Shown here piece after piece: positions 12,525 through 31,112 of a stretch of 64,000 bases of DNA. A model generated the notes under the pieces. It ran no database searches and was not told where the DNA came from. It worked only from the letters and a program-made list of their open reading frames with translations. The DNA is from Victivallis lenta. Its GTDB lineage: Bacteria; Verrucomicrobiota; Lentisphaeria; Victivallales; Victivallaceae. The stretch covers positions 124,001-188,000 of the forward strand of contig NZ_VUNS01000001.1 of assembly GCF_009695545.1 (NCBI RefSeq), written 5' to 3'. The position numbers were made by a program, and so were the translations under genes. Numbering within the stretch: the first letter of the stretch is position 1; each line of letters opens with the position of its first letter.

Positions 12525-14339
12525 TCAGCGAATATCTTTCTTCAGGAAGCCTTCGAGCACGTTCATGCTTTCGCGCAGGCCTCCGGCCCGGTTGCGGGCC
12601 AGCCACAGATCGCGGTGACGCCCGATGACCCGGCGCAGGCCGTCGTTCCAGGCCGCCGCATCGAAAGCGCCGCCTTTCCGGGCCGCCAGCGATTCGAGCG
12701 CCAGGCGGGCCAGCTCCGATGAATTTGCGAGCTCGTCGAGCACGAGGCGCGGAGCCTTTGGCGGATGTTCCGTCATACGGCCGCGCCAGGAGGCGAGCGC
12801 GGCAAGCGCCGCGGCGGCCTCGTCCGCCGTCGCCAGCTCCAGGAGCTCGCGGTTGCAGCGGCGATCCGGCGCATTCAGAATGCCCCAGAAGCAGGTCTGG
12901 TTCACGCCGGGATGCGCGAACGCCTCGCAGATGCGGCCGTAATCGAGCAGCAGCTCCCCGAGCCTCCCGTCACCACCCGGATTGAAGGCGAAATCGACCG
13001 CGTACGGCACCGCCTCTTCCACAGATGAAGCCGCGTTCCAGCTCCACCCGGCCGCAGCGGCGATGCCGGGCCAGGAGAGCGGCCAGTACTGATGATGCCC
13101 GCCGTCGCCCCAGTCGGTCAGCAGCAGCCCGGCCGCCCCGGACTCCCGGCCGCAGCGGGCCGCCGAACCGATGTTGCCGAACATGTTCGCGGTCCGGCCG
13201 GTGATCGAGTTCCAGGCCGACGTGCCGGGGCAGACGTAGAACGGAATTCCGGCGGCGCGGAACTTCGCGCATTCGTCCCTGAACGGGTGGTTCGCCTCAT
13301 ATCCCCAGTCGAGCGCAGTCACCCCCTGCGGCAGCTCCGGAATCAGCTCCGGCTCATGCAGGATGATATCGCCCCAGAACTGGACCCGGCGCCCGTGCCT
13401 GCCGGCCAGCTTCACAAGTTCCGAGAGAAAATCGAGGTAAACCCGGTGCAGGCCGCGCTCCGCGCAGAGCTTCCGGCTGCGCCCCTGCCCGAGCTCCACA
13501 GTCTCGTCGCAGCCGATGTTCAGCATTCCGCTCGTGAAGTTCGGCAGGAACTCGGCGTAGAGCCGGTCGATGAAGTCGAGCGCCTCCTTTCCGGGAGCGA
13601 GCGTCGCCTGATACCAGGCATCCCACGCCTCGAAATACCACGGTTCCGGACTTTCGGCCAGGCCGCGGTACTCTCCGAGGCAGAGCCAGCGGCCGAGATG
13701 CCCGAAGCTGTTCAGATTCGGCACGAGCTCGATGAAACGGCTGCGGCAGTAGCGGTCGAGTTCCATGATCTCCGCCGGCGTCAGCGGCGAGGAGTCGAAC
13801 CAGACCCGTTCGTCTCCGGCAAACGCGAAAGAGTGTTCCATGTAAAGCTGCAGCTCATTGTAACGCAAGGCGCTCAGGCTGTCGACGGTCCGTTTCAGCT
13901 CCTGCATGGCCGGCACCTTGCAGCGCGACACGTCGAGCATGTAGCCGCGCCGCGCGAAATCGGGCGCGTCGTCAATCCGCATCAGCGGAACCCGGCACGG
14001 TTCCGACAGCAATTGCCGGAAAGTGAGCAATCCGTAGTAAAACCCGGCGTCGCCGGAGGCCGACAGCAGCGCCTGTTCCGGCGTCGTTTCGAGCCGGTAT
14101 CCCTCCGGCGGCAGGGTGGAATCCCGCACCATGGTCAGCAGCCGGGCGCCCGCGCCCGGCGTGCCGGCCGTCACCTCAACCGGAGAAAAAAAACGCTCCG
14201 ACAGCAGCTCCGCCGCGCACATCGCCGCCTCCTTCAGCTCGAATCCGGCCTCCGCCGGAAGGACCAGCCAGCGGCGATCCGCATAGCTCACCCAGGAACC
14301 CGAATCGGAAACCCGGCGCGGTTCGGGAAAAATCAACAT
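12525..14339 (-). CDS. GH20-like beta-N-acetylhexosaminidase
   Basis: A 604-residue protein with the two-part GH20 layout: an N-terminal alpha/beta domain (about 1-115) and a TIM barrel starting at APDFARRGYMLDVSR. The barrel holds the GH20 aspartate-glutamate pair D278-E279 in NIGCDETVELG, the substrate-assisted catalytic site of this family. It has no signal peptide and so should be cytoplasmic, probably trimming imported N-acetylhexosaminyl or other hexosaminyl oligosaccharides. The family fit is good. The substrate is open, since GH20-like proteins of this divergence may act on other sugars. GGAGGTG lies about 5 nt before the start. Confidence 0.75.
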   Translation of the reverse strand: MLIFPEPRRVSDSGSWVSYADRRWLVLPAEAGFELKEAAMCAAELLSERFFSPVEVTAGTPGAGARLLTMVRDSTLPPEGYRLETTPEQALLSASGDAGFYYGLLTFRQLLSEPCRVPLMRIDDAPDFARRGYMLDVSRCKVPAMQELKRTVDSLSALRYNELQLYMEHSFAFAGDERVWFDSSPLTPAEIMELDRYCRSRFIELVPNLNSFGHLGRWLCLGEYRGLAESPEPWYFEAWDAWYQATLAPGKEALDFIDRLYAEFLPNFTSGMLNIGCDETVELGQGRSRKLCAERGLHRVYLDFLSELVKLAGRHGRRVQFWGDIILHEPELIPELPQGVTALDWGYEANHPFRDECAKFRAAGIPFYVCPGTSAWNSITGRTANMFGNIGSAARCGRESGAAGLLLTDWGDGGHHQYWPLSWPGIAAAAGWSWNAASSVEEAVPYAVDFAFNPGGDGRLGELLLDYGRICEAFAHPGVNQTCFWGILNAPDRRCNRELLELATADEAAAALAALASWRGRMTEHPPKAPRLVLDELANSSELARLALESLAARKGGAFDAAAWNDGLRRVIGRHRDLWLARNRAGGLRESMNVLEGFLKKDIR

Positions 14340-14382
14340 GCTGCACCTCCCTCATCTGTTGTTGAAACCAGCATGGGGAACT

Positions 14383-14410
14383 ACTATATCCGCGCCGCGC
14401 CGTTTCGCAA
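14383..14410 (-). promoter_or_regulatory. possible promoter of the GH20-like gene
   Basis: TTGCGA (14405-14410), 16-bp spacer and TATAGT (14383-14388) on the minus strand, about 40 nt upstream of the start codon. Confidence 0.4.
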
Positions 14411-14441
14411 TCCCGCACGACCTGTTTTCCGAAAAAAAAAT

Positions 14442-14469
14442 TTGCATCATCCTTTGGAGGATGTATATT
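14442..14469 (+). promoter_or_regulatory. cstA promoter whose spacer is a perfect palindrome
   Basis: TTGCAT (14442-14447) and TATATT (14464-14469) are separated by 16 bp. The spacer is itself a complete inverted repeat, CATCCT-TTGG-AGGATG (14448-14463). Predicted transcription start is near 14476, giving a leader of about 33 nt with AGGAGG at 14498-14503. Confidence 0.5.
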
Positions 14470-14508
14470 AATGAGTTTCGTTCAGGCATATTGCATCAGG
14501 AGGAAAAA

Positions 14509-15972
14509 ATGCTGCTCTTTCTGCTCGGGATGGCGATTCTCGTGATCGGTTACTTCACTTACGGCAGGTTCGTCGAAAAGATTCTGGGGCCGGACGACCG
14601 GCCGACGCCATGCCGGACCTGTTCGGACGGCGTCGACTTCGTCCGGCTCCCGCACTGGAAAAACATGCTGATCCAGCTCCTGAACATCGCCGGAGTCGGC
14701 CCGGTGATCGGCGTGATCCTCGGCATCAAATTCGGCGCGATCGCCTTCCTCATCATTCCGGTCGGCAACATCATCGGCGGCGCCGTGCACGACTTCGTCG
14801 GCGGCATGATGTCGCTGCGGCACAACGGCGCCAACCTGCCGGAACTGATCCGCATGAACACCGGCAAGGCGTTCTACTGGATCTTCTCGGCGTTCATGAT
14901 CTTCCTGCTGCTGCTGGTGGTGGCGGTATTCATCAACATTCCGGCCCGGCTGATCGACGGCTTCTGGCCCTCGACCGCGCTGTTCTGGACGGCGGTCATC
15001 GCCATCTTCCTCTACTACATCGCCGCGACGCTGTTCCCGGTGGACAAGATCATCGGCTCGGTTTATCCGCTGTTCGGCGCGCTGCTGATCCTCGGAACCT
15101 TCGCGATCTTCGCGGTCCTGATGTTCCACGCAGCCGGCAACCCCGCGCTGCTGTCGGAGTCGGAGGCATTCCGGGCCAATATGCTGACCCCCGCCAACAA
15201 CAGCCCGATCCTGCCGATGCTGTTCGTCACGATCGCCTGCGGCATCCTCTCGGGCTTCCACGCCACGCAGTCGCCGATCATCGCCCGCACGATGGAGCAT
15301 GAAAAACAGGCGAAATCGAGCTATTACGGCATGATGGTGCTCGAAGGCGTGATCGGCATGATCTGGGCGGCGGCCGGACTGGCGATCTACAATCTGTTCC
15401 CCGAGCTCATGCAGGAAAACCCGACCAATGTGCTTTCGAAGATCACGACGCATTTCCTCGGCAGCTGGGTCGGGGCGGTGACGGTCATCAGCGTCATCAT
15501 CCTCGCCGTAACCTCCGGCGACACGGCGATGCGGAGTCTGCGGCTGAGTCTGGCGGAAATGTTCCGCATTCAGCAGAAGCCGATCAGGAACCGCTTTCTG
15601 CTCTGCCTGCCGCTGATCGCCGTCGTCTCGCTCCTGCTCTGGTGGTCGAACCAGAGCGCCCAGACCTTCAACCAGCTCTGGGTCTACTTCGCATGGGGCA
15701 ATCAGGTGCTCGCAAGCTGCACGCTGACGGCCGGCACAGTCTGGCTGCTGCGGAACCGCAAGCCGGGGTGGATCACCGCCGTGCCGGGCGCATTCATGAC
15801 CTTCATCGTCGCGACCTATATCCTCTGGATCTCGCCGGCACACGGCGGACCGCTCGGCAAGCCGCTGCTCGGTTTCGGGCTCGAGCTGCAGACAGCGTAC
15901 ATCATCGCAATCCTGTTCGCGTGCATCACGACCGGCTGGAGCATCTGGTACGGGCGGAAACTCTCCCGGTAA
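14509..15972 (+). CDS. cstA: CstA-family carbon starvation / pyruvate transporter
   Basis: An integral membrane protein of about 487 residues. It carries the CstA-family core: GPD.RPTPC near the N-terminus, then NIAGVGPVIGVILG, GNIIGGAVHDFVGGMMSLRHNGANLPE, and a later SGFHATQSPIIARTM loop. CstA proteins import pyruvate (E. coli CstA/BtsT) and have also been linked to peptide use. This copy is the short form, as E. coli CstA has about 700 residues. The frame extends 57 codons upstream, but AGGAGG 5 nt before the ATG at 14509 and the start of the first helix fix the start. It stands alone. Confidence 0.88.
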   Translation: MLLFLLGMAILVIGYFTYGRFVEKILGPDDRPTPCRTCSDGVDFVRLPHWKNMLIQLLNIAGVGPVIGVILGIKFGAIAFLIIPVGNIIGGAVHDFVGGMMSLRHNGANLPELIRMNTGKAFYWIFSAFMIFLLLLVVAVFINIPARLIDGFWPSTALFWTAVIAIFLYYIAATLFPVDKIIGSVYPLFGALLILGTFAIFAVLMFHAAGNPALLSESEAFRANMLTPANNSPILPMLFVTIACGILSGFHATQSPIIARTMEHEKQAKSSYYGMMVLEGVIGMIWAAAGLAIYNLFPELMQENPTNVLSKITTHFLGSWVGAVTVISVIILAVTSGDTAMRSLRLSLAEMFRIQQKPIRNRFLLCLPLIAVVSLLLWWSNQSAQTFNQLWVYFAWGNQVLASCTLTAGTVWLLRNRKPGWITAVPGAFMTFIVATYILWISPAHGGPLGKPLLGFGLELQTAYIIAILFACITTGWSIWYGRKLSR

Positions 15973-17536: not shown

Positions 17537-18613
17537 TCAGATTCCGGAACGGTTGTATTTCCGCCGCACCGTATCGGGGTAGACGACGTGCGACAGCAGC
17601 GAATCGTAGCTGATGCGTCCCTGCTCGTAGAGGCGGATCAGCGACGAATCCATCGTGCACATCCCCTGCTGCGTGCCGAGCTCAAGCTGCGTGTAGAGTT
17701 TGTGCCAGTCCGCGTCGCGCATCAGGTTCCGCGACGCGAGGTCGACGGAGAGATATTCGCAGGCGAGCACCCGGCCCTTGCGGTCGACCGTCGGCAGAAG
17801 CTGCTGGGTCAGAATCCCCTGCAGAGAGTTCGCGAGCTGAACGATCACCTGCTGCTGCTGCTCGGGCGGAAACACGCCGACGATCCGTTCGACGGTCGTC
17901 ACCACGCTCGAAGTGTGCAGCGTCGCAATCACGAGGTGGCCGGTTTCGGCCGCCGTGAGGGCGGTGCCGATCGTGTCGAAATTCCGCATCTCGCCGATGC
18001 CGATCACATCCGGGTCCTGCCGCAGGATGTGCAGCAGCCCCTCGTGGAAGCTCCGCACGTCGCTGTGCAGCTCCTGCTGGACTACGAGCGACATCTTGTG
18101 GGTGTGGACATATTCGATCGGGTCTTCGATCATGATGATCTTGCCGCGGCGCCGGCTGTTGATCTGGTCGATCATGTAATTCAGCGTCGTCGTCTTGCCG
18201 GAACCGGTCGGCCCGGTGACGAGAATGAGGCCGGAAGGCCGGTCGAGCAGCCGGTCGACCGCCTCCGGCAGCCCGAGCTCCTCGCGGGTGCGCAGCTTTT
18301 CCGCGCAGGCGCGGATGGAGAGTTCCGGCGAGCCGTTCCGCAGATAGACCGAAACCCGGAACCTGCCCAGCTCCGAATGCGTGAGCGAGTAGCTGAGCGC
18401 CATCTCCTTTTCGAACGTCTCGCGCTGCGCCTCGGTCAGCGCGTCGAGCGCCAGGCGGGCCAGCGTCTCCGCGGAATACGGTTCGGCTTCGGCGAGGACG
18501 ATTTCGCCGTTGACCCGCCAGGCGGGCGGCAGCCCCGCGATCAAATGGATGTCCGAAGCGCCGAACCGGCGCGCCGTATACAGAAGGCGATCCAGCGTAA
18601 GTGGTTTGCTCAT
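17537..18613 (-). CDS. pilT: PilT-family type IV pilus retraction ATPase
   Basis: A 358-residue secretion ATPase of the PilT/VirB11 class. It has Walker A GPTGSGKT (134-141), the Asp box IEDPIEYVH, a Walker B region GIGEMRNFDT (E208) and the His box ATLHTSS. In PilT proteins these hexamers pull pilins out of the pilus base, powering twitching and DNA uptake. One deviation is the usual GEMRD motif reading GEMRN here. The glutamate needed for hydrolysis is kept. It is the last gene of a seven-gene operon that includes a Ycf46-like AAA ATPase. The operon has no pilin or assembly ATPase, though pseudopilin genes lie elsewhere in the window. The start at 18613 has AGGA in front. Confidence 0.9.
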   Translation of the reverse strand: MSKPLTLDRLLYTARRFGASDIHLIAGLPPAWRVNGEIVLAEAEPYSAETLARLALDALTEAQRETFEKEMALSYSLTHSELGRFRVSVYLRNGSPELSIRACAEKLRTREELGLPEAVDRLLDRPSGLILVTGPTGSGKTTTLNYMIDQINSRRRGKIIMIEDPIEYVHTHKMSLVVQQELHSDVRSFHEGLLHILRQDPDVIGIGEMRNFDTIGTALTAAETGHLVIATLHTSSVVTTVERIVGVFPPEQQQQVIVQLANSLQGILTQQLLPTVDRKGRVLACEYLSVDLASRNLMRDADWHKLYTQLELGTQQGMCTMDSSLIRLYEQGRISYDSLLSHVVYPDTVRRKYNRSGI

Positions 18614-18638
18614 AATTCCTGTTCCGTTCCGCTTCCGG

Positions 18639-19427
18639 CTATCTTCCGAACAGCCGCGCCCAGAAGCCGCGCGCGGCAACCGCTTTCTTCAACTCATCGG
18701 GAATCGTATAATCCGGCATCAGGGTCGAACACGCCGCCAGCGCCATCTCGGCGCCGCGCCGGTCCCCGAGCCGGAGCCGGGTCCGGGCCATCCGGAGCTG
18801 AAGCTCCCCCTTCTCCGGGTGGCGCGAAAGCACCGGGCTCAGGAATTTCATCGCCATGCCGGCCGAGGCGTCGGTATCCGCGAACAGACAGCAGTCGGCC
18901 ACCAGAACCGCCGCTTTCCACTCCTCGATTCCGCCGACCGCAAACGCCTGCTCGAAGCAGTACCCGGCATTCCGGCGCGAATAGAGAAACAGCTCCCCGC
19001 GAACGATATAGGCGAGCGCTCCGCCGCCTTTCTCCAGCGACGAATCCGAATACCCGCAGGCGCGGTCGAACTCACCGGTGCGCGCCGCCGCCAGCGCCCG
19101 CAGCGCCAGCAGATCCGGCGTCTCGCCGACCACGCCGGCGGCATTGGCGTACCAGAGCCCGGCCTCATGATATTCACCGAGTTCGATCAGCGAAAAAACC
19201 TGCCCCTGCCATGCCGGAGCGGAACCCGGATCGAGCCCGACCGCGCGCGAATACTCCTCCAGCGCGCGCTCGTAGACCGAGCGGAAAAACAGCCGGTCGC
19301 CGCGATCAAGAAAGTATTGCGCATCCTTGACCGGCTCCCCGGCGTAACACGGCTTGCCTGCATCCTTCGGGCCGCCGGAGGGCGGCTCGGGAATATCGGC
19401 AAGCTCCAGTGCGTTGAATCGTCCCAT
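18639..19427 (-). CDS. TPR-repeat protein of unknown function
   Basis: A 262-residue soluble protein made largely of tetratricopeptide-like helical pairs. These include AQYFLDRGDRLFFRSVYERALEEYSRAVGLDPGSAPAW (two stretches, about residues 36-74) and later repeats ending in LQLRMARTRLRLGDRRGAEMALAACS. No signal peptide or catalytic motif is seen. TPRs are protein-binding scaffolds, so it may tether components of the operon, which comprises PilT, the pseudo-peptidase, DUF2997/DUF1257 proteins and AAA ATPase. It lies 12 nt after the gene before it and 25 nt before pilT. Confidence 0.7.
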   Translation of the reverse strand: MGRFNALELADIPEPPSGGPKDAGKPCYAGEPVKDAQYFLDRGDRLFFRSVYERALEEYSRAVGLDPGSAPAWQGQVFSLIELGEYHEAGLWYANAAGVVGETPDLLALRALAAARTGEFDRACGYSDSSLEKGGGALAYIVRGELFLYSRRNAGYCFEQAFAVGGIEEWKAAVLVADCCLFADTDASAGMAMKFLSPVLSRHPEKGELQLRMARTRLRLGDRRGAEMALAACSTLMPDYTIPDELKKAVAARGFWARLFGR

Positions 19428-19439
19428 ATTGCTCCATTC

Positions 19440-20738
19440 TCAGTTCGAATCTGTTGGAATATACTCCGCATCCGGCGCAAGGCCAAGCGGCCTCCGGCGC
19501 CAGAACGGAAAAACCACCCGCTCGAGCCGGGCGGCGATCGCCCCCCGGCCGATGATCGCATAGTCGCGGTTCCACCCGACATTGCCGCGCTGCGTCACCG
19601 ACGGGTAAAGCAGGAATTCATCACTGCCGAGCACGGTTTCCGGCAGGTCCGGCAGCCGGTAGTCGGGGTTCAGCGGCAGAACCGCCGCGGGCGCATCGTC
19701 CACAAAGAGCCTTCCGTTCCTGATGCCTACTTTCTGGCCCGGTCCGGCCAGCAGCCGGTCGACGACATTGTCCGCGCCGTACACATAACGCCGAATTCCG
19801 ACCTGCACGATGTCGCCGGGCCGGAGTTCCCGCATCTCCCGGTCGAGCGCGACCCACTCCCCGCCGTAGAGCTCCGGCCCGCGATAGAGCGGCGCGATCA
19901 CCAGATAGTCGAGACGCCCGATCACCCGGTCGGCGGCAAAACCGTAGGAGAGGTTGTATGCCTGATAGACGAAAAGGCTCAGGACAACCGTGTAAAACAG
20001 CCTCTGCCGGTACGGATGCGACTCGAACCGGAAGATGTCGCAGATGCTGAGCGTCGGCCCGAGCGCCGCCAGCGCCAGCATCCACGGGAACCAGTCCGTC
20101 CCCAGATAAGCGACCGCCAGAGACAGCCCGAGCAGCCAGATGCCGATATAGACGAAGCCCCGGACGATCCGTTTCCGGTAAAACTGGTAATATCCCGGAA
20201 TCAGCGCGGACGGGATTCCGAGGACGGCCCGCGAAACCACGTCCCGAAACGAAAAGTCGCGCCCGTGCGGCGAGATATTCGTCGAGAAAAACGGCTGAAT
20301 CCGGTCGCCGAACAACGCATCGCAGAGACTGACGCCGTAAGCGGCCAGCGCAATGAGCATCATCCGGAGCCGAACCGATTCCGTCCCCGCGCGGAGCATG
20401 CCGCAGAGTCCGCCGCTCCACGCGGCCAGGCAAACAATGCCGAACAGCAGCCGCCCGCGGCGGAGCTGGCCGAAGCCCGGCAGCAGCAGCACAGCCAGCC
20501 AGTCGGCGACAGCCCACTCCCGTTCCGGCGTAACGACGGCCTCGCCGTTCGACTCGCGCCAGCGGAACCCCCGGCGGCGGCGCATGCGCCAGAGCAGCCG
20601 CCGCGCCCGGTCCGCCCCCTTCGCACGGGGCGGGTGCGGGTCGATCGCCGGAAGTTCGGGCGCGCGCAGCAGCTTCCCGCAGCGCACACACTTCTTCAGG
20701 TAATCCAGATTGTTGAAACCGCACTCCGGACAAAGCAT
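19440..20738 (-). CDS. zinc-ribbon membrane protein with a degenerate signal-peptidase (S26) domain
   Basis: A 432-residue protein. Residues 3-21 form a zinc ribbon (CPEC, then CVRC eleven residues on). Several hydrophobic segments follow through about residue 260. The C-terminal third looks like signal peptidase I: GGEWVALDRE, LRPGDIVQV, DNVVDRLLAGPGQKVGIRNGRLFVDD, then LGSDEFLLYPS and IIGRGAIAARLERVVFPF. These match the family order of GD.V, RGDIV, VKRVIGLPGD and the final IIGk..fPf. The catalytic Ser-Met-x-Pro motif is absent, and the catalytic lysine of VKR is aspartate (VDR), so peptidase activity is unlikely. It may be a scaffold or binding protein. Whether the homology reflects a real S26 fold needs profile searching. 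Confidence 0.65.
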   Translation of the reverse strand: MLCPECGFNNLDYLKKCVRCGKLLRAPELPAIDPHPPRAKGADRARRLLWRMRRRRGFRWRESNGEAVVTPEREWAVADWLAVLLLPGFGQLRRGRLLFGIVCLAAWSGGLCGMLRAGTESVRLRMMLIALAAYGVSLCDALFGDRIQPFFSTNISPHGRDFSFRDVVSRAVLGIPSALIPGYYQFYRKRIVRGFVYIGIWLLGLSLAVAYLGTDWFPWMLALAALGPTLSICDIFRFESHPYRQRLFYTVVLSLFVYQAYNLSYGFAADRVIGRLDYLVIAPLYRGPELYGGEWVALDREMRELRPGDIVQVGIRRYVYGADNVVDRLLAGPGQKVGIRNGRLFVDDAPAAVLPLNPDYRLPDLPETVLGSDEFLLYPSVTQRGNVGWNRDYAIIGRGAIAARLERVVFPFWRRRPLGLAPDAEYIPTDSN

Positions 20739-20750
20739 CGACAGTTCCGC

Positions 20751-20954
20751 TTACCGCTCCGTCTCCACATCGACATCGACGTCGACGCCGATTCCGGCCT
20801 GAAAATATTCGGAATCCGGCTCAAAGCCGACCTCCTGCCCGACGATTTCAGAGAGAATGTCCGCGATCTCGCGGCATCTGGTGCCGCCGAAACCGGAGAT
20901 GTCTCCGCGAACGATCCCCTCCGGAGAAATTTCGATCTCGATTTCCCGTGCCAT
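20751..20954 (-). CDS. DUF2997-like small protein
   Basis: A 67-residue acidic protein: MAREIEIEISPEGIVRGDISG, then FGGTRCREIADILSEIVG. The pattern of a short beta hairpin, G-x-x-G-x-x-C and a helix fits DUF2997. That family occurs next to DUF1257 (Ycf35-like) and Ycf46-type AAA ATPase genes in many bacteria. The same three genes are adjacent here, which supports the assignment. C-terminal residues GVDVDVDVETER form a repetitive acidic strand. The longer upstream frame overlaps the DUF1257 gene and is not used. The function is unknown. The single cysteine in a conserved place could bind metal or be modified. Confidence 0.65.
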   Translation of the reverse strand: MAREIEIEISPEGIVRGDISGFGGTRCREIADILSEIVGQEVGFEPDSEYFQAGIGVDVDVDVETER

Positions 20955-20958
20955 ACGA

Positions 20959-21471
20959 CTACTCCTCCCAGCTGCGCAGTTTGATGCGGATATTATCCTC
21001 GTCGTCAACCGTCTGTTCGACGAGCTCCATTCCGGTGCGGTTCTTCATCTCCTCGACGACCCGCGCATAGACGTACTGCTGGATCACGCGCCCGGCGAGC
21101 GTGCGGCCAAGCTCTTCGAGCTCGGCCTTCGGGTGAGAATCGCCGGTCACGCAGACCCGCATGCGGCCGCGCACGTCGCGCGAGAACCGGACCTCGATAT
21201 CGTCCTTCACAAACACCAGCTGCTGCTCGCGGCCGATCGACGCGCCGACCTCCTCGGCGTTACTGAGTTCAAGCTCGACCTCGGTGCGTACGCCGGAACC
21301 GACCTTTTCCTTCACGCCGCCGCTGACGTTCACATACTCCTTCGCGATCGTCCTGACCGTCTCGTCGACGGCGACGAAGCCCATGGCAACCAGCACAGCA
21401 CTCGCGGCCGTCGCAACCGCCGGCCACGCCGCCATCGCAATGGTCGGCGCGATAATGACAACTCCACTCAT
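20959..21471 (-). CDS. DUF1257 / Ycf35-like protein
   Basis: A 170-residue protein. The C-terminal half (about 85-170) resembles DUF1257, the family of chloroplast and cyanobacterial Ycf35: LAGRVIQQYVYARVVEEMKN followed by MELVEQTVDDEDNIRIKLRSW, close to the family's I-x-Q-x-Y-a and V-V-E-Q...G-x-I-R-L-V patterns. Residues 1-35 are unusual, being hydrophobic and alanine-rich, and may form a membrane anchor that ordinary DUF1257 proteins lack. A TTG start two codons upstream is possible; ATG at 21471 has GGAGG 8 nt upstream. It sits 12 nt after the AAA ATPase gene and 4 nt before the DUF2997 gene. Function is unknown across the family. Confidence 0.65.
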   Translation of the reverse strand: MSGVVIIAPTIAMAAWPAVATAASAVLVAMGFVAVDETVRTIAKEYVNVSGGVKEKVGSGVRTEVELELSNAEEVGASIGREQQLVFVKDDIEVRFSRDVRGRMRVCVTGDSHPKAELEELGRTLAGRVIQQYVYARVVEEMKNRTGMELVEQTVDDEDNIRIKLRSWEE

Positions 21472-21483
21472 GGCCAATCCTCC

Positions 21484-23061
21484 TTATTCCAGTTCGATTT
21501 TTCGGAGCTCGCCTTCCGGAACTTCCGGCGCACCGGTCGAAGCCGGGCGCGCCCGGCCGAGACACCAGTCGCGCAGCTTCCGGATCTCCTCCGACAGCGT
21601 CCGCGACAGCGGAACCGTCGCCGCCAGCGCCAGCATGACGTCCCCTTCCTCCAGGTCGCGCCCGGCGTAGTAGCAGTCGTACAGCGCCGCGACGACCGCC
21701 GCCTCGATTTCGGCCCCGCTGAAGCCGGCGGAAGCCTTCGACAGCGCGTCGAGGTCGAAATAGTCGGGATTCCGGTTCCGCTCGGCGATCTTCAGCCGGA
21801 AAATCTCCTTCCGCTCCGCCTCGTTCGGCAGGTCCACGAAGAAGATTTCGTCGAAACGCCCCTTGCGCAGCAGCTCGGGCGGAAGCTTCGAGATATTGTT
21901 CGCGGTTGCGATGACGAAAACCGGCGCGGTCTTTTCGGCCAGCCAGGTCAGGAGAGCGCCGAAGATGCGCGCCGAGGTGCCGCCGTCGGTGTCTCCGCCC
22001 GAACCGCCGACGCCGCCGAACGCCTTCTCGATCTCGTCGATCCAGAGAATGCACGGCGAAATTGATTCGGCCACGGCGAGCGAACGGCGCATATTCGACT
22101 CGGTCGAACCGAGCGCGCTCGAAAAGAGCCGCCCGGCGTCGAAGCGCAGCAGCGGCATCTTCCATGCCGCGGAGACGGCCTTCGCGCAGAGGCTCTTGCC
22201 GCACCCCTGCACGCCGAGGAAGAGCGCTCCCTTCGGGGCGGGCAGCCCGAAAGCACGGGCATTCTCGGTGAACGCGAACGAACGTTTCCAGAGCCACTCC
22301 TTCAGGAGATCGAGTCCGCCGATGTTCTCGAATCCCTCGGCCGCCTCGTAGTATTCGAGGATGCCGGATTTGCGGATCAGCTGCTTCTTCTCCTCGAGCA
22401 CGACCGGAACGCTCTCCGCCGAAAGGCCGCCCTGCAGCACCAGCGCGCGCGCAAACACGTTCTCGGCTTCGTTGAAGGTCAGCCCGAGCGCGGCCTGCAG
22501 CAGCGCCTCGCGCGATTCGGGCGGCAGGTCGATGACGAGCTGCGGATTGTCTCTGACTTCGGCGAGCACCTGGTCGAGCAGATCCTCCATGACCGTCAGG
22601 TCCGGCAGCGGGTAGTCGATGACCGTGACATCCTTTTCGAGATCTTCAGTCATGCACATGGTCGGTGTGATGATGATCAGCGTCTTGTAGCTGTTCTTCA
22701 GCGCGGCGGCGACTTCCCGGAGACGCCGGATCACCGCGAAATTGCGGTTTCCCATATAGGGGTGGAAATCGAAAAAGACGAAAATCGCCGGTTCGATATT
22801 CCCGATGACCCGGTCGAGAGCGGCGAGCGGGTCGCGGGTCTGCGGATCGGTCCGTCTGGCTGACTGCTCCGTGAGCCCGGCGGGAATCACGCCGGTATTG
22901 AAGCTCCAGGTGTAAACCTTCTTTTCGCGCCGCTCCGCAATGCGCTGCACATGCGCAAGGACGCGCTGTTCCTCGTACGAGACGACATTGATCACCGGGT
23001 ACCGCGCCCGGATCAGCATTTCAAGCTCGTCGCGGCGAACCGCCGGATTACCGTTAGCCAT
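21484..23061 (-). CDS. Ycf46-type AAA ATPase
   Basis: A 525-residue AAA+ protein of the Ycf46 family, conserved in plastids and cyanobacteria as well as many other bacteria. The N-terminal domain has the family opening LIRARYPVINVVSYEEQRVL and FVFFDFHPYM. The AAA module has Walker A GVQGCGKS (283-290), Walker B CILWIDEIEK (D342, E343), sensor ATANN, and LLRKGRFDEIFFVDLP with arginine fingers. Such ATPases remodel or unfold proteins; Ycf46 has been tied to CO2 use in cyanobacteria, but its substrate is not known. The gene overlaps the end of the radical SAM gene by 8 nt and is followed by DUF1257 and DUF2997 genes, the recurrent Ycf46 neighbourhood. The start has AAGGTGG about 6 nt upstream. 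Confidence 0.88.
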   Translation of the reverse strand: MANGNPAVRRDELEMLIRARYPVINVVSYEEQRVLAHVQRIAERREKKVYTWSFNTGVIPAGLTEQSARRTDPQTRDPLAALDRVIGNIEPAIFVFFDFHPYMGNRNFAVIRRLREVAAALKNSYKTLIIITPTMCMTEDLEKDVTVIDYPLPDLTVMEDLLDQVLAEVRDNPQLVIDLPPESREALLQAALGLTFNEAENVFARALVLQGGLSAESVPVVLEEKKQLIRKSGILEYYEAAEGFENIGGLDLLKEWLWKRSFAFTENARAFGLPAPKGALFLGVQGCGKSLCAKAVSAAWKMPLLRFDAGRLFSSALGSTESNMRRSLAVAESISPCILWIDEIEKAFGGVGGSGGDTDGGTSARIFGALLTWLAEKTAPVFVIATANNISKLPPELLRKGRFDEIFFVDLPNEAERKEIFRLKIAERNRNPDYFDLDALSKASAGFSGAEIEAAVVAALYDCYYAGRDLEEGDVMLALAATVPLSRTLSEEIRKLRDWCLGRARPASTGAPEVPEGELRKIELE

Positions 23062-24061
23062 TCGCACCACCTTCCACGTTCTCCCCGCCCGACAGCAGGG
23101 CATTCAACAATTGACGGACCTCGTCCGGAACGTCCTGAACGGCGATCGTGCCGTCCGGCCGCAGAATCAGTTCTCCGCTGAATCTGCCGGAATCCGATCC
23201 AACGCCCCCGGGTTCCGGATTGCAGACCGAACGGATGCGCCGGAGTCCGAGCCGCTCCACGGCCTCCCCGACCTTCTCCCACTCCCGCCGGTCGAGCGGA
23301 AGGCAGCAGCCGTCTTGGTCCGGCAGGAGCTCATTCAGGCTGACCGGCACGCCGGGCAGCTCTTCCGCCAGGAATTCGAGCGCCGGAATCGTGCAGCATT
23401 CGACATGCCCGTGCACCGGCAGCTGCCGGACGAGAAGCCGCCCGGGTTCCACGGCAAGCAGATTCCGCTTCATCGTCGGGACATAGCCGCCGAAACCGGT
23501 CAGCCGCCCGGCGCACGCATCCGCCGCGAACTTGAAATCGGCCACATAGAAGTCGACGAAACCGTCGATGACCTCGAATGCCTCGGCAGTGAACAGGAAA
23601 TCGCTGTTCCAGACCACCGGCACGCCCGACTCGAGCCGGCGGGCGACTTCGACGGCGGCCGGAAGCGAACAGCCGGGCTCGCCACCGAGCAGCTGAAGCA
23701 CGCGGATGCGGCCCTGCCGGTAAAGCCGGTCTGTCCGCGCCGCGATCTCCGCCGCATCGAACGGAACGCAGCCGGGACACCCCGGCTCCAGGAATTCGGC
23801 GTTCGAACAGTAGCGGCAGCGCAGGTTGCATCCGGCCAAATAGAGCATGCGGGCCGGATTCAGCGGAGGTTCCTCGCCATAGGTCGTGAAAAACTTCGAA
23901 ACGCGCGGTTCGGTCACGCCGCAGAATCCGGTTTCGCCTTCCGCGCGGCGCGCGCCGCAGCGGCGTTCGCACAGGCGGCACGGGCTGGCCAGTGCGGCAG
24001 CCCGGCCGCTCAGCGCCTCCCAGTCGATCGAACGCCCGATTTTCGCAATAAAATCTCTCAT
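23054..24061 (-). CDS. radical SAM protein, PflX-like activating enzyme family
   Basis: A radical S-adenosylmethionine protein of about 335 residues. The cluster motif CNLRCRYC (C-x3-C-x2-C) is clear. It is preceded by an extra cysteine-rich N-terminal block CRLCERRCG...GETGFCG, as in proteins annotated PflX or putative pyruvate formate-lyase activating enzymes. QLLGGEPG follows, corresponding to the GGEP motif that binds SAM. Members of this family have no firmly known target. Heading an operon with a Ycf46 ATPase and DUF2997/DUF1257 proteins, it may modify one of them; this is inference. The start is uncertain: ATG at 24061 or 24073, neither with a good ribosome-binding site. Confidence 0.82.
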   Translation of the reverse strand: MRDFIAKIGRSIDWEALSGRAAALASPCRLCERRCGARRAEGETGFCGVTEPRVSKFFTTYGEEPPLNPARMLYLAGCNLRCRYCSNAEFLEPGCPGCVPFDAAEIAARTDRLYRQGRIRVLQLLGGEPGCSLPAAVEVARRLESGVPVVWNSDFLFTAEAFEVIDGFVDFYVADFKFAADACAGRLTGFGGYVPTMKRNLLAVEPGRLLVRQLPVHGHVECCTIPALEFLAEELPGVPVSLNELLPDQDGCCLPLDRREWEKVGEAVERLGLRRIRSVCNPEPGGVGSDSGRFSGELILRPDGTIAVQDVPDEVRQLLNALLSGGENVEGGANG

Positions 24062-26610: not shown

Positions 26611-27753
26611 CTATTTCGATGCATACGGGTCGGCCGCGTCGCGCAGCCCGTCGCCGACGAAGTTGAAGCACAATACCGCGAACACCAGCATCAGCACCGG
26701 CGAAAGCAGCCACGGATAGTCGATGACCGCCTTCACATTCATGCACTCCTGCAGCATGACGCCCCAGCTCACCACCGGCGGACGCAGCCCGAGCCCGAGA
26801 AACGACAAGCTCGTCTCCCCGAGGATCATCCCCGGCACGGTCAGCGTCAGCGTCACGATGATGTGGCTCGCAAAGGCCGGCAGCAGGTGGCGGAACAGAA
26901 TCCGCCCGTGCCCCGCCCCGAGCAGCCGGGCCGCGACCGCGTAATCCTCCTCGCGCAGGCTCAGGATCTTGCCGCGCACGACCCGTGCGAGACCGGTCCA
27001 CGACAACAGGCTCAGGGTGACCGTGATCGCGAAATAGGTCTCGAGCGGGCTCCAGTCCGCCGGTACCGCCGCCGCCAGCGCGAGCCACATCGGCAGCTGC
27101 GGGAACGAGTTGATGATCTCGATCACCCGCTGGATCGCCGTGTCGGTCACTCCGCCGCAATACCCTGAAATCCCGCCGATCACCACGCCGAGCACGAACG
27201 AGAGGAACACTCCGACCAGCCCGACCGACAGCGAAATCGTCGATCCCTGCACGATGCGGCTCCAGATGTCGCAGCCGAATTTGTCCGCCCCGGCCATGTA
27301 ATAGACGAAACGCTTCTCGTCGCCGGGCTTGAAGTCCGGAATCCGGCCGGTGTCGACCCCGAACAGATGACGGTCCGTCGGAAAGATCCCCCAGAGCCTG
27401 TACGGCACGCCCCGGACGAAGAAACCGAGCGGCGCGTTGTTTTCGGGCGCATCCTCATAGTAGCTGTTCAGCGTGACCGGATCGACCATCCGCCTGAGCC
27501 CTTTGGCGTGCAGCCCCGTCTCCCGGTCGAAGCCGAGCTTCTGCGGGGGGCAGTAGATGTAGTCGAGATTCCGCTCGTACTTGCCGTACGGCGCGAAAAA
27601 CGGCGAGAAAAGCGCCATGATGTAAAGCCCCGCCAGCAGAAACGCGGCCGCCACAGCGAGCTTGTGCCTGCGGAATTTCAGCAGCGTGAGCTGCCGCTGG
27701 TTCAGCATGTCGTAGGTCAGCGGGCCGGGCGGCGTGAAAAGTCTGATTCTCAT
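26611..27753 (-). CDS. OppC/DppC-like ABC permease
   Basis: A 380-residue inner-membrane permease. After an N-terminal helix (LAVAAAFLLAGLYIMALFSPFF) there is a long periplasmic loop (about residues 55-165). Five helices follow, with the coupling helix EEDYAVAARLLGAGHGRILFRHLLP (EAA-type loop) and ending in NFVGDGLRDAADPY, which is typical of DppC/OppC. It is longer than the usual ~300 residues because of the loop. Its start overlaps the stop of the fusion protein by 4 nt (ATGA), so stoichiometric translation with its partner permease domain is expected. Confidence 0.9.
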   Translation of the reverse strand: MRIRLFTPPGPLTYDMLNQRQLTLLKFRRHKLAVAAAFLLAGLYIMALFSPFFAPYGKYERNLDYIYCPPQKLGFDRETGLHAKGLRRMVDPVTLNSYYEDAPENNAPLGFFVRGVPYRLWGIFPTDRHLFGVDTGRIPDFKPGDEKRFVYYMAGADKFGCDIWSRIVQGSTISLSVGLVGVFLSFVLGVVIGGISGYCGGVTDTAIQRVIEIINSFPQLPMWLALAAAVPADWSPLETYFAITVTLSLLSWTGLARVVRGKILSLREEDYAVAARLLGAGHGRILFRHLLPAFASHIIVTLTLTVPGMILGETSLSFLGLGLRPPVVSWGVMLQECMNVKAVIDYPWLLSPVLMLVFAVLCFNFVGDGLRDAADPYASK

Positions 27754-30700
27754 CGGGTTCCGCCTCCTTCCAGCCGGATGCGCGGATCAACCATCATCAG
27801 CAGCAGATCGCTGACCAGCGTCCCCATGACGCCGAGCAGGCTCAGCACCATCAGCATCGAACCGGCCATATTCATATCCTGGCTGAACAGCGCCGACAGC
27901 ATCAGCGGCCCCACCGTCGGCAGACTCATGACGATCGCGACGATCGAACTGCCGGAAACGAGCGTCGGAAACAACGTCCCGATCCCTGAAATGAACGGGT
28001 TCAGCGCCATGCGCACCGGATATTTGAACAGCAGCTTCAGCGGCCGCACTCCCTTTGCGCGGGCGGTCACCACATACGGCTTGCGCAGTTCGTCGAGCAG
28101 ATTCGCGCGCATGACCCGGATCATCCCGGCGGTTCCGGCCACGCCGACCACGAGGATCGGCACCCAGATGTGCCGGCAGAGATCGACGGCCTTGCCCCAG
28201 CTCCATTCGGGCTGAATCGCGTACTCCGGCGAAAACAGCCCCGAAATCCCGGTCAGCGCCATCAGGATCAGCGCCAGCAGGAACGACGGCACGCACATGC
28301 CGAGAAATCCGAGCACCGAAATGAGGTAATCGCCCGCCGAATACTGCCGGCAGGCCGAATAGATCCCGATCGGCAGCGCAAGGCTCCAGGTCAGCAGCAC
28401 CGTGCCGAGCGATATGAGAACGGTCAGTAAAATCCGGTCGCCGACCATCGAATTCACGCTCTTCGAGGTCTCCATCGAATAACCCATCTCACCCTGCAGC
28501 AGCCCGGCGTCCTTCGGGTCGAAGGTGACGAACCAGGTGAACCCCATCCAGCGGCAGTAGCGTTTCCAGGCCGGGTCGTCGAAGCGGAAGAGCACGCGCA
28601 GGTCGTCGATCTGCGACTCGATCTGCTCCGGCGACGCGCCCGACTCCTCGAGCTGCATGATGCGGTTGCTGAGGTAGTCCCCCGGCGGCAGCTGGATGAT
28701 CGTGAAGACGCAGACCGAAATCACGAACAGCGTCGGAACCATGATGACCAGCCGCCGCAGCACGAACGGATGCTTCAGGATCAGCAGCAGCACGAGCAGC
28801 CCCGCCGCCGCCAGCAGCGACAGCTGAACCGCGCGCCCGAGCGCCGAGACCGGCACCCCGGAGACCGGCGGAATCTCATCGCCCGCAGCGAGCTGGCGGA
28901 CCGTATCCGCATCGGCCGCCGCGGACGGGCGGTCGAAACAGTAGGTTTCGGGCGCCGTGTTGCCGGGAGTCAGGAAGCAGTATCCCTCTACCGCCTTTTC
29001 CGGAACGTTCCGCATGTTCTCAGAGACGACGACGATCTTGGGCGGCGCGCTCGCCACGTTGATGGTCCAGAGGTTTTCGGCCGCGATATCGGTGATCTCG
29101 CGCATGAGCTCCTTCTGCCGCGCCGGGTCCGCCGAGCGGACCGCCTCCTCGTAGCACTCGATCGCGCGGTACATCGGGCTCGTCCGCGGCACCGGAACGG
29201 CTCCGGGATTGCCCGCTTCGGGAGCCCCGTACATGCCGTTCAGCGAAAACCAGTTGCCCCAGCCGATCGCGTAGGCGGATTCGTTCGTCGTCGCCACGAA
29301 GCTGCGCGGGGAAAGCAGCGGGACGATCTCCGACTCGCTCGACCAGATGTAGAAGTCGTAGTTGCGCGACAGCTTGCGCACGGTCAGCAGCGGGCGCGAA
29401 CAGAGCTGGTACATGCAGCGGATTCCGACCTTCGCCCAGTCGTCCGCCACGAACTGCGCCGGGCCGGTCCCGGTGAAATCCGTGAAGATCATGTAAAACG
29501 TGACCGGGCGGCCGTTTTCGTCGCAGCGGAACCCGTCTTTGCGCACCGCCGGGTCGAGCCCGAGCCTCCGCCAGACCGCGTCGAGCTTCCGGTTCGCTTC
29601 GGCCGGATCGTGCCGCGTGAAGGCGGTGCGGAGCTTTTCGGAGGGGTAGAGCGAATACGGCCCCGGCTCGACCTGGTGCGGCTTCGCCAGCCCGGCGTAG
29701 AACGCATCGATGATCGGCCCGCGGTCGACCGCGAGCGACAACGCCTGCCGGAACTCTTTTTCGGCCAACAGTTTTCCCTTCAACTCCGAAGCGCGGTCGT
29801 CCGCAATTACGGCGCGGTTCAGATTCGGGTAGATCAGCCACTCGCTCGATGTACCCGGAATCCAGCAGAGCACGCGGAATTTGTTTTCCCGGGCCCGTTC
29901 CATGAACTCCGTGTAGTTCTCGAAGCGGATGTAGCGGAACTGCATGTCGGCGCGGCCGCTCGCCACCGCCAGCGGCACCATCATCGAATCGATGAACTCC
30001 AGCTGGAGCCGGTCGATGTACGGCAGCTGCCGCCCCTCTTCATCGACCGCGAAATAGTACGGGTTGCGCACGAACGACATCGGCGACATCGTCGTATATT
30101 TGCGGTAAAGCCACGGGCCGAGCGACGGCAGAGCCGGATTGTTCGCGCTCATCAGCGTATAGAGCGAACGCGCGTTCGGCATGTTGTACTTCGCCATCTC
30201 CGCGGCGAGGAACGCCTTGTCGCCGTAATCGGGATGATACTTTTTCAGGTAATGCGCCGGAGCGAAGGCGGCCTGCGTCGCAAGCGTCTCGAGGAAATCC
30301 GCGCGCGGCTCCGGGAAGGTCCAGCGGACCTTGTGCGGCCCGAGCTTCTCAAGCGTCGCGGGCCTGCCGCCGACCGTGAAATGCTTGTAGACGCGGCCGC
30401 CGCCGAGCGATTCCGCCAGCATGAAGTCGTTCCAGAAGAAGAGCACGTCGTCCGCCGTGAACGGGTGGCCGTCGCTCCAGCGGATCTTCCGCAGCGTGAC
30501 CTCCCAGATTCGCCCTTCCTCCTTCATCTCGTACGCTTTGGCGATGTGCGGCACGATCGGGTATCCGGCCGGGCCGAACCGGAACAGCCGGTCGTAGAAG
30601 ATGCGGGCGGTCGCGGCCGCGGCGTCCGAACCGGAACCGGCAACGAACTGCACCCAGACCCCGCCGAATTTGCCGGGCCCGTCGCAGCCGCGCATGACGA

Positions 30701-31112
30701 CCGGCTCGGGGCCGGTCCGCTCCGCGACCGGCGGCAGGTCGACCCGGTCGAGCACCGGACTCTGCTTCCGCGGATACCAGGCCGGCAGCCTGCCCGCCCG
30801 GATCAGCCGCTCGACCTCTCCCGGAGCCGCCCCGGGAAACCGCTTCCGGAATTCGGCGGCGCGCCGGTAATCCGCCTCCGGCACGCTCCGCACCACACTG
30901 TAGCGGACGCCGTCGAGCGACTCCGGCAGCTGCCGCGCCGCCGCGGCCGCTTCCGCTTCGGCGGCGGTGCGCCGTCCGCGCCCCGGCCGCGTATCCGGCA
31001 TGACCAGGTATGCGAAGAGCAGCGTCGCGCCGTAAAGCGCGGCGAGCGCCCCGAGAAGGCCGAGCAGGACCTTCCATTTCGCAACCGGACGAATGATCTT
31101 TTTCCGACTCAT
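27750..31112 (-). CDS. fusion of family 5 solute-binding protein and OppB/DppB-like permease
   Basis: One 1120-residue chain contains two normally separate parts of an oligopeptide-type importer. An N-terminal helix (about 13-36) anchors a family 5 solute-binding domain (about 120-740). Its motifs include FGGVWVQF, IRWSDGHPFTADDVLFFWNDFM, SLYTLMSAN and FRQALSLAVDR. A linker helix (about 757-778) is followed by a DppB-like permease (about 780-1120) with RRLVIMVPTLFVISVCVF, GDRILLTVLISL and the coupling loop YVVTARAKGVRPLKLLFKYPVR. The linker helix returns the chain to the cytoplasm, so the topology works. The gene starts 1 nt after the M14 gene. Substrate is unknown; the operon suggests glycan fragments or glycopeptides. 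Confidence 0.88.
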   Translation of the reverse strand: MSRKKIIRPVAKWKVLLGLLGALAALYGATLLFAYLVMPDTRPGRGRRTAAEAEAAAAARQLPESLDGVRYSVVRSVPEADYRRAAEFRKRFPGAAPGEVERLIRAGRLPAWYPRKQSPVLDRVDLPPVAERTGPEPVVMRGCDGPGKFGGVWVQFVAGSGSDAAAATARIFYDRLFRFGPAGYPIVPHIAKAYEMKEEGRIWEVTLRKIRWSDGHPFTADDVLFFWNDFMLAESLGGGRVYKHFTVGGRPATLEKLGPHKVRWTFPEPRADFLETLATQAAFAPAHYLKKYHPDYGDKAFLAAEMAKYNMPNARSLYTLMSANNPALPSLGPWLYRKYTTMSPMSFVRNPYYFAVDEEGRQLPYIDRLQLEFIDSMMVPLAVASGRADMQFRYIRFENYTEFMERARENKFRVLCWIPGTSSEWLIYPNLNRAVIADDRASELKGKLLAEKEFRQALSLAVDRGPIIDAFYAGLAKPHQVEPGPYSLYPSEKLRTAFTRHDPAEANRKLDAVWRRLGLDPAVRKDGFRCDENGRPVTFYMIFTDFTGTGPAQFVADDWAKVGIRCMYQLCSRPLLTVRKLSRNYDFYIWSSESEIVPLLSPRSFVATTNESAYAIGWGNWFSLNGMYGAPEAGNPGAVPVPRTSPMYRAIECYEEAVRSADPARQKELMREITDIAAENLWTINVASAPPKIVVVSENMRNVPEKAVEGYCFLTPGNTAPETYCFDRPSAAADADTVRQLAAGDEIPPVSGVPVSALGRAVQLSLLAAAGLLVLLLILKHPFVLRRLVIMVPTLFVISVCVFTIIQLPPGDYLSNRIMQLEESGASPEQIESQIDDLRVLFRFDDPAWKRYCRWMGFTWFVTFDPKDAGLLQGEMGYSMETSKSVNSMVGDRILLTVLISLGTVLLTWSLALPIGIYSACRQYSAGDYLISVLGFLGMCVPSFLLALILMALTGISGLFSPEYAIQPEWSWGKAVDLCRHIWVPILVVGVAGTAGMIRVMRANLLDELRKPYVVTARAKGVRPLKLLFKYPVRMALNPFISGIGTLFPTLVSGSSIVAIVMSLPTVGPLMLSALFSQDMNMAGSMLMVLSLLGVMGTLVSDLLLMMVDPRIRLEGGGTR

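Follow-up and report, generated by a model that had tools for sequence, protein, structure and literature searches.

A block of seven genes in the bacterium Victivallis lenta, centred on a Ycf46-type AAA ATPase, is a co-inherited unit that recurs in Lentisphaeria and Planctomycetota. We tentatively read it as encoding a membrane-tethered, p97-like AAA remodelling machine that is assembled through short end-tags. The block occupies positions 17537-24061 of the 64,000-nucleotide stretch that was analysed (hereafter the window; contig NZ_VUNS01000001.1 of assembly GCF_009695545.1, positions 124,001 to 188,000). Its seven genes are all encoded on the minus strand and specify a PflX-like radical SAM protein, the ATPase, a DUF1257/Ycf35-related protein, a DUF2997 protein, a zinc-ribbon membrane protein with a signal-peptidase-like (S26-like) domain, a TPR protein and a PilT-family ATPase, with successive gaps of -8, 12, 4, 12, 12 and 25 nt. 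The tight spacing described in a first-pass annotation of this DNA is thereby borne out, and its radical SAM, AAA, DUF2997, TPR and PilT labels each score above their family cut-off (Pfam; TIGR01420). New here are the operon as a whole and the observation of a terminal tag and tail, not any individual gene. The literature searches made returned no paper that unites these genes or describes the block, its tag or its tail.

Conservation and co-inheritance of the block

Scanning the AAA protein against one genome per species yielded 80 loci. All seven genes occur in identical order at 10 loci, comprising the window, two further loci in Lentisphaeria, the class of V. lenta (L129, L130), and loci in Planctomycetota (L001-L004, L179, L183, L184). 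Partial blocks were also found. In L131, the radical SAM gene sits on the opposite strand, adjoining PilT, and in L134 the S26-like gene was not recognised. L006, from a bin labelled Chloroflexi that may be misassigned, is without the radical SAM gene, and L180 (apparently on the same contig as L005) retains AAA, TPR and PilT only. At L132, L133 and L182, a contig end truncates the block.

Compared pairwise, the seven families have between-species protein distances that correlate at 0.75-0.93, values that species history alone could give. The PilT proteins of the block form one clade (support 100/100 for 14 rows, 95/84 when L006 is included), to which the further PilTs encoded in those genomes do not belong. 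Because the order is the same across Lentisphaeria and Planctomycetota and the PilTs fall into their own clade, the block is a co-inherited unit. As the whole block recurs in order across phyla, the arrangement also exceeds chance. The proposal that a Ycf46-DUF1257-DUF2997 trio is joined here to a radical SAM gene and to PilT thus describes a conserved arrangement.

A predicted tandem AAA protein

The Ycf46-type ATPase (21484-23061; Pfam AAA 98.3 bits, cut-off 21.2) is 47-48% identical to cyanobacterial Ycf46 over approximately residues 24-527, the N-terminal region included. Its active module carries the Walker A motif GVQGCGKS and the Walker B motif ILWIDE, and the closest solved chains are those of the Cdc48/p97 D2 domain. 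Residues 1-247, modelled alone from a 40-sequence alignment, adopt an AAA-like fold (pLDDT 91.5) that aligns to the AAA domains of PAN, p97 and Vps4 with Z of 13-14 over about 200 residues (Foldseek best E 2e-6). This N-terminal module is without a P-loop; VSYEEQR follows the strand where the P-loop would be expected, and E30, E31 and R33 are invariant across the 40 sequences. Since the module combines an AAA fold with a missing P-loop, the prediction for Ycf46 is a tandem AAA architecture in which the first module is inactive and the second active.

The terminal tag and the tail of the ATPase

The TPR protein (18639-19427; Pfam TPR_19 30.9 bits, cut-off 25) is kept across operons and in the window begins MGRFNALELAD, with the tag RFNALE at 19404-19421. 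RFxxLE likewise falls within the first 14 residues in sister operons, and the TPR proteins of the blocks start MGRFNALEL, MSRFSSLEF, MKRFTNLEF, MTHRFNALEI and similar. In the form RFxx[LI]E, the tag appears on further proteins encoded near Ycf46-type genes. Rhomboids of L131 and L132 end in RFDNIEL(D), and a double-zinc-ribbon membrane protein of Omnitrophota (L010, L011, L013) bears the motif at one of its ends. Other tagged neighbours are an NHL protein (L028), a protein of no assigned family (L194), an SNF2 helicase in Chloroflexota (L056) and a like-tagged protein in L029. Injection-system proteins of Treponema end NDRFSNLEL and TGRFSRLEF (L080, L215), and at one phage locus three proteins ending SRFSLIE, SRFSFLE and SRFAFLESK are encoded beside AAA, DUF1257 and DUF2997. 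Tag carriers include non-homologous proteins across phyla.

With orthologs counted, the tag lies within the first 14 residues of 20/912 AAA neighbours and 0/1121 other proteins, and within the last 12 residues of five AAA neighbours and one other protein. After correction for homology by BLAST clustering, 7 of 199 near families carry it, compared with 6 of 1224 far families (p=8e-4); permuted motifs give 0-2/199 in the same family-level count. On viral contigs, the family-level figures are 4/184 and 2/703 (p=0.02).

The ATPase itself ends in a short tail with the consensus [RK]x[LI]E[LF], seen mainly where DUF1257/DUF2997 are present; in the window this is ELRKIELE (21484-21510, stop codon included). 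For a survey, the pattern was set to [RKQ]x[LIM][ED][LIF], and a locus was called linked if it held DUF1257 or DUF2997. The tail is present in 29 of the 48 linked bacterial and archaeal loci, in 30/32 cyanobacterial Ycf46 proteins and in 3/57 unlinked AAA proteins, the last including a cut operon (L182) and a Treponema relative (L214). At L180 (genome G547), DUF1257, DUF2997 and the AAA tail have all been lost and the TPR tag is kept. In this genome and in G428 and G429, no DUF1257 or DUF2997 was detected genome-wide, the AAA protein is tail-less and RFxxLE proteins remain. Since these genomes lose the tail together with the DUF proteins yet keep the tag, the pattern hints at a pairing of the tail with DUF1257/DUF2997 and of the tag with the ATPase, a correlation noticed by inspection.

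Small, membrane and accessory proteins

The DUF1257/Ycf35-related protein (20959-21471) has an N-terminal membrane segment at residues 1-23. The protein itself has no Pfam match at E<=1, and no match to DUF1257 (PF06868) was found in the genome. Its orthologs in L131 (40% identical) and L183 (38%) pass the PF06868 cut-off through their C-terminal half, and the assignment was made through them and an alignment. The DUF1257/Ycf35 label of the first-pass annotation therefore holds for the orthologs and not for the window protein by its own match, and we call the latter DUF1257-related only. The hydrophobic N-terminal segment is shared by the DUF1257-like proteins of the operons, whereas soluble relatives are without it. 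No fold family could be assigned to a model of the DUF1257-like protein, as Foldseek gave no match under E 0.001 and the best Z, 7.5, lies in the chance range. DUF1257 and DUF2997 profiles compared with solved structures gave nothing convincing. In the 67-residue DUF2997 protein (20751-20954; PF11211 33.7 bits, cut-off 24.1), G13, G24 and C27 are invariant among 46 sequences.

The S26-like protein (19440-20738) carries an N-terminal CxxC..CxxC zinc-ribbon. Its S26 score of 16.7 bits is below the cut-off of 22.9 and the catalytic Ser/Lys are not conserved in 10 orthologs, which places it outside signal peptidase I (S26) and agrees with its earlier description as a pseudo-peptidase. Sister operons contain an extra rhomboid gene beside the AAA gene, active-type (GASG) in L131 and L132 and degenerate in L001, L002, L004, L129 and L179. 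Two rhomboids were found elsewhere in the V. lenta genome, and the one end that was readable is untagged. The hydrophobic N-terminus of the DUF1257-like protein, the S26-like membrane protein and the rhomboids of sister operons fit the earlier suggestion of a membrane-linked unit. The TPR and zinc-ribbon proteins, the pseudo-peptidase and the rhomboid all have the look of factors that receive membrane proteins or act as scaffolds for them.

A proposed membrane-tethered remodelling machine

We postulate a two-tier ring of the Ycf46-type ATPase, with the inactive first AAA module in one tier and the active second module in the other. The C-terminal tail of the ATPase would dock DUF1257 and DUF2997 as a pair, and the ring would be held at the membrane by the anchor segment of the DUF1257-like protein. 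The RFxx[LI]E tag, which the TPR protein of the window bears N-terminally and the rhomboids of sister operons C-terminally, would recruit partners. The TPR, zinc-ribbon and rhomboid proteins would present membrane-associated partners, which the ring could then pull on or dismantle. In this form of the machine, PilT would be a dedicated accessory, as would the radical SAM enzyme, and PilT may act as a second motor. To what was computed (gene order, co-inheritance, the tandem-AAA prediction, and tag and tail conservation with their contexts), this model adds parts that we infer, namely that the tag and tail are binding sites, who binds whom, and that the ATPase forms a double ring and pulls. Our confidence in it falls somewhat short of even.

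Several observations weigh against this model. The window encodes no such rhomboid. The tail is missing from L004 and L006, where DUF1257/DUF2997 are present; in mobile-type trios of Verrucomicrobiota the AAA protein ends in RRIAA-like residues instead, and many viral AAA proteins end LDL or LDI with no DUF1257/DUF2997 detected nearby. The viral enrichment of the tag is modest, and three of the four viral carriers come from one locus. The tag also resembles the FTLIEL motif of prepilins, which calls for caution and is also a possible link to PilT.

A broader and more doubtful extension is that RFxx[LI]E is the tag by which a p97-like Ycf46/DUF1257/DUF2997 machine, widespread and used by bacteria, phages and possibly plastids, generally recruits its partners. 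The window operon would then be its membrane-protein-extraction form, with the (pseudo-)rhomboid and the pseudo-signal-peptidase as substrate receptors, and a bacterial counterpart of endoplasmic reticulum-associated dislocation.

Alternative readings

The PilT-family ATPase (17537-18613) scores 150.9 bits for T2SSE (cut-off 24.9) and 379 for TIGR01420 (cut-off 319), and its nucleotide motifs are intact (Walker A GPTGSGKT, GEMR). Together with the prepilin-like tag, this is consistent with an accessory of a pilus or type II secretion system, in which PilT would retract a pseudopilus, the AAA and small proteins would remodel pilin-like substrates and RFxxLE would mimic FTLIEL. A search of genomes of the class for R-F-x-x-hydrophobic-E-L indeed recovers many RFTLIEL-type prepilin sequences, and PilC-type genes are found on other contigs of the V. 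lenta genome. We nevertheless regard this account as unlikely. No PilB, PilC or pilin gene was found within the block or in any block seen, and the genome holds four further PilTs, as two tandem pairs. The tag can stand at extreme C-termini, mostly with polar residues at positions 2-3 and without a membrane helix after it, and also occurs in loci without PilT. A pilus role is neither supported nor excluded.

Across the V. lenta genome, the DNA pattern RF..[LIMF]E[LF] is enriched, with 124 sites compared to 33 for a reversed control. Among the sites listed, many translate to RFTLIEL, a prepilin-type N-terminus, which points to many pseudopilin-like proteins. A whole-genome pattern search for the tag was swamped by such matches.

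The first gene of the block encodes the radical SAM protein (23054-24061; Pfam Radical_SAM 36.4 bits, cut-off 29.5). Its cluster motif CNLRCRYC and an N-terminal cysteine motif, CRLCERRC..C, are both kept in sister operons. With 29.9 bits for NrdG2 (cut-off 131) and 26.9 for PflE (cut-off 174), it falls outside the glycyl-radical-enzyme activases. Less probable still than a pilus accessory is a maturation system in which DUF2997 or some other small partner is modified by this enzyme and, once modified, is loaded or released by the AAA protein acting as an activase. The invariant Cys27 of the 46 DUF2997 sequences would suit such a role, as would the radical SAM gene, though of a different type, that adjoins AAA in the Treponema injection-system loci, and the grouping of duf2997-ycf35 with the ferredoxin gene fed7 in Synechocystis (PMC4284462). 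Most trio loci, however, have no nearby radical SAM gene of this family, and L006 carries the block minus this gene.

It is rather improbable that the tag and tail arose by coincidence from composition, in a real operon whose proteins do not dock through them. The small family-level count (7/199), the automatic gene calls and the modest viral enrichment are compatible with coincidence, but permuted motifs stay at background, N-terminal placement is 20 against 0, the tag is kept in TPR orthologs across phyla and three tagged proteins occur within one phage locus. Loose co-transcription of functionally unrelated genes, a housekeeping linkage, would suit the patchy distribution (AAA orthologs with at least 55% identity in 6/198 genomes of class Lentisphaeria and in none of the eight congeners listed), and is very improbable given seven genes in identical order in two major lineages and an operon-specific PilT clade.

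The trio outside the block, and flanking genes

DUF2997 was found in 15/338 genomes of the phylum, and most of the Ycf46-DUF1257-DUF2997 trios there lie in other surroundings, with neither PilT nor a radical SAM gene. As the trio is also found without them, neither PilT nor the radical SAM enzyme is its obligate partner; the association proposed in the first-pass annotation fails for the trio generally and stands for this block. In many Verrucomicrobiota (L135-L148), a DUF1257-DUF2997-AAA trio follows a conserved protein of ~340 residues with the motif VLxxVSVRYWRAxKKL. These mobile-element-like trios sometimes also come after a sliding-clamp-like gene, and their AAA tail is often RRIAA. Ycf46-type AAA genes are also common in viral contigs, some exceeding 300 kb (L219-L298), and cultured Mycobacterium, Pseudomonas, Rhizobium and Rhodobacter phages carry them as well.

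Upstream of the block, ~217 nt away, lies an oligopeptide ABC transporter gene set. Within the window, a 1120-residue frame on the minus strand (27750-31112) fuses SBP_bac_5 (residues 186-590) to BPD_transp_1 (912-1113), that is, extracellular solute-binding and ABC permease domains, which is unusual within an oligopeptide transporter operon. Downstream lies guaA, a separate gene. Other neighbouring genes code for a carbon starvation protein of the CstA type (14338-15972) and for a GH20 glycoside hydrolase (12525-14339). Promoter and terminator scans around the block gave consensus matches only and did not help to delimit the unit. PADLOC returned just AAA-level likeness to IetA and weak matches, and we therefore claim no defence system.

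Relation to known systems and significance

Cyanobacteria and algal plastids have conserved Ycf46 and Ycf35 proteins. The cyanobacterial Ycf46 loci share with the block the AAA family, with the identity given above extending over some 500 residues, a DUF1257 gene directly downstream and a similar AAA tail (EYQRLEF). They differ in that none of those examined includes a gene from the radical SAM, S26-like or PilT families of the block, and in that the cyanobacterial DUF1257 protein is soluble whereas the window version has a membrane segment. In Synechocystis, duf2997, ycf35 and fed7 form a cluster (PMC4284462). According to PMC7496141, which cites earlier studies, slr0374 encodes Ycf46 and shares a stress operon with slr0373 and slr0376. 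The same paper describes slr0374/Ycf46 as stress-induced and its inactivation as lowering the activity of the carbonic anhydrase EcaB.

The likeness to Cdc48/p97 is best described, by analogy, as a resemblance in design and not as family membership. As in Cdc48/p97, two AAA modules per chain are predicted, with the active module nearest p97 D2; sister operons encode a (degenerate) rhomboid together with the AAA protein, and short terminal motifs recur. Cdc48/p97 works with rhomboid-like Derlins and with short cofactor motifs. The window system differs in having no p97 N-domain and no ubiquitin parts, and the ATPase scores 92 bits on the family model TIGR01243, for which the cut-off is 803. The block PilT resembles the PilT/PilU retraction ATPases in score and motifs, and differs in its separate clade and the absence of adjoining pilus genes.

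The contractile injection loci of Treponema (L080, L215) likewise combine a radical SAM gene, a Ycf46-type AAA gene and DUF2997 with a neighbour ending in RFxxLE. These genes lie, however, among those for sheath, tube, hub and spike, with DUF1257 elsewhere in the genome and no PilT, TPR or S26-like gene of these families. The Treponema loci lie at 3144-11660 in L080 and 11622-15462 in L215.

As a whole, the block is real, conserved and deserving of follow-up. The predicted tandem-AAA design, the putative docking tail and the candidate partner tag offer a testable handle on the long-unexplained Ycf46 and Ycf35 proteins, and the tag may be used to find more partners, genome by genome.

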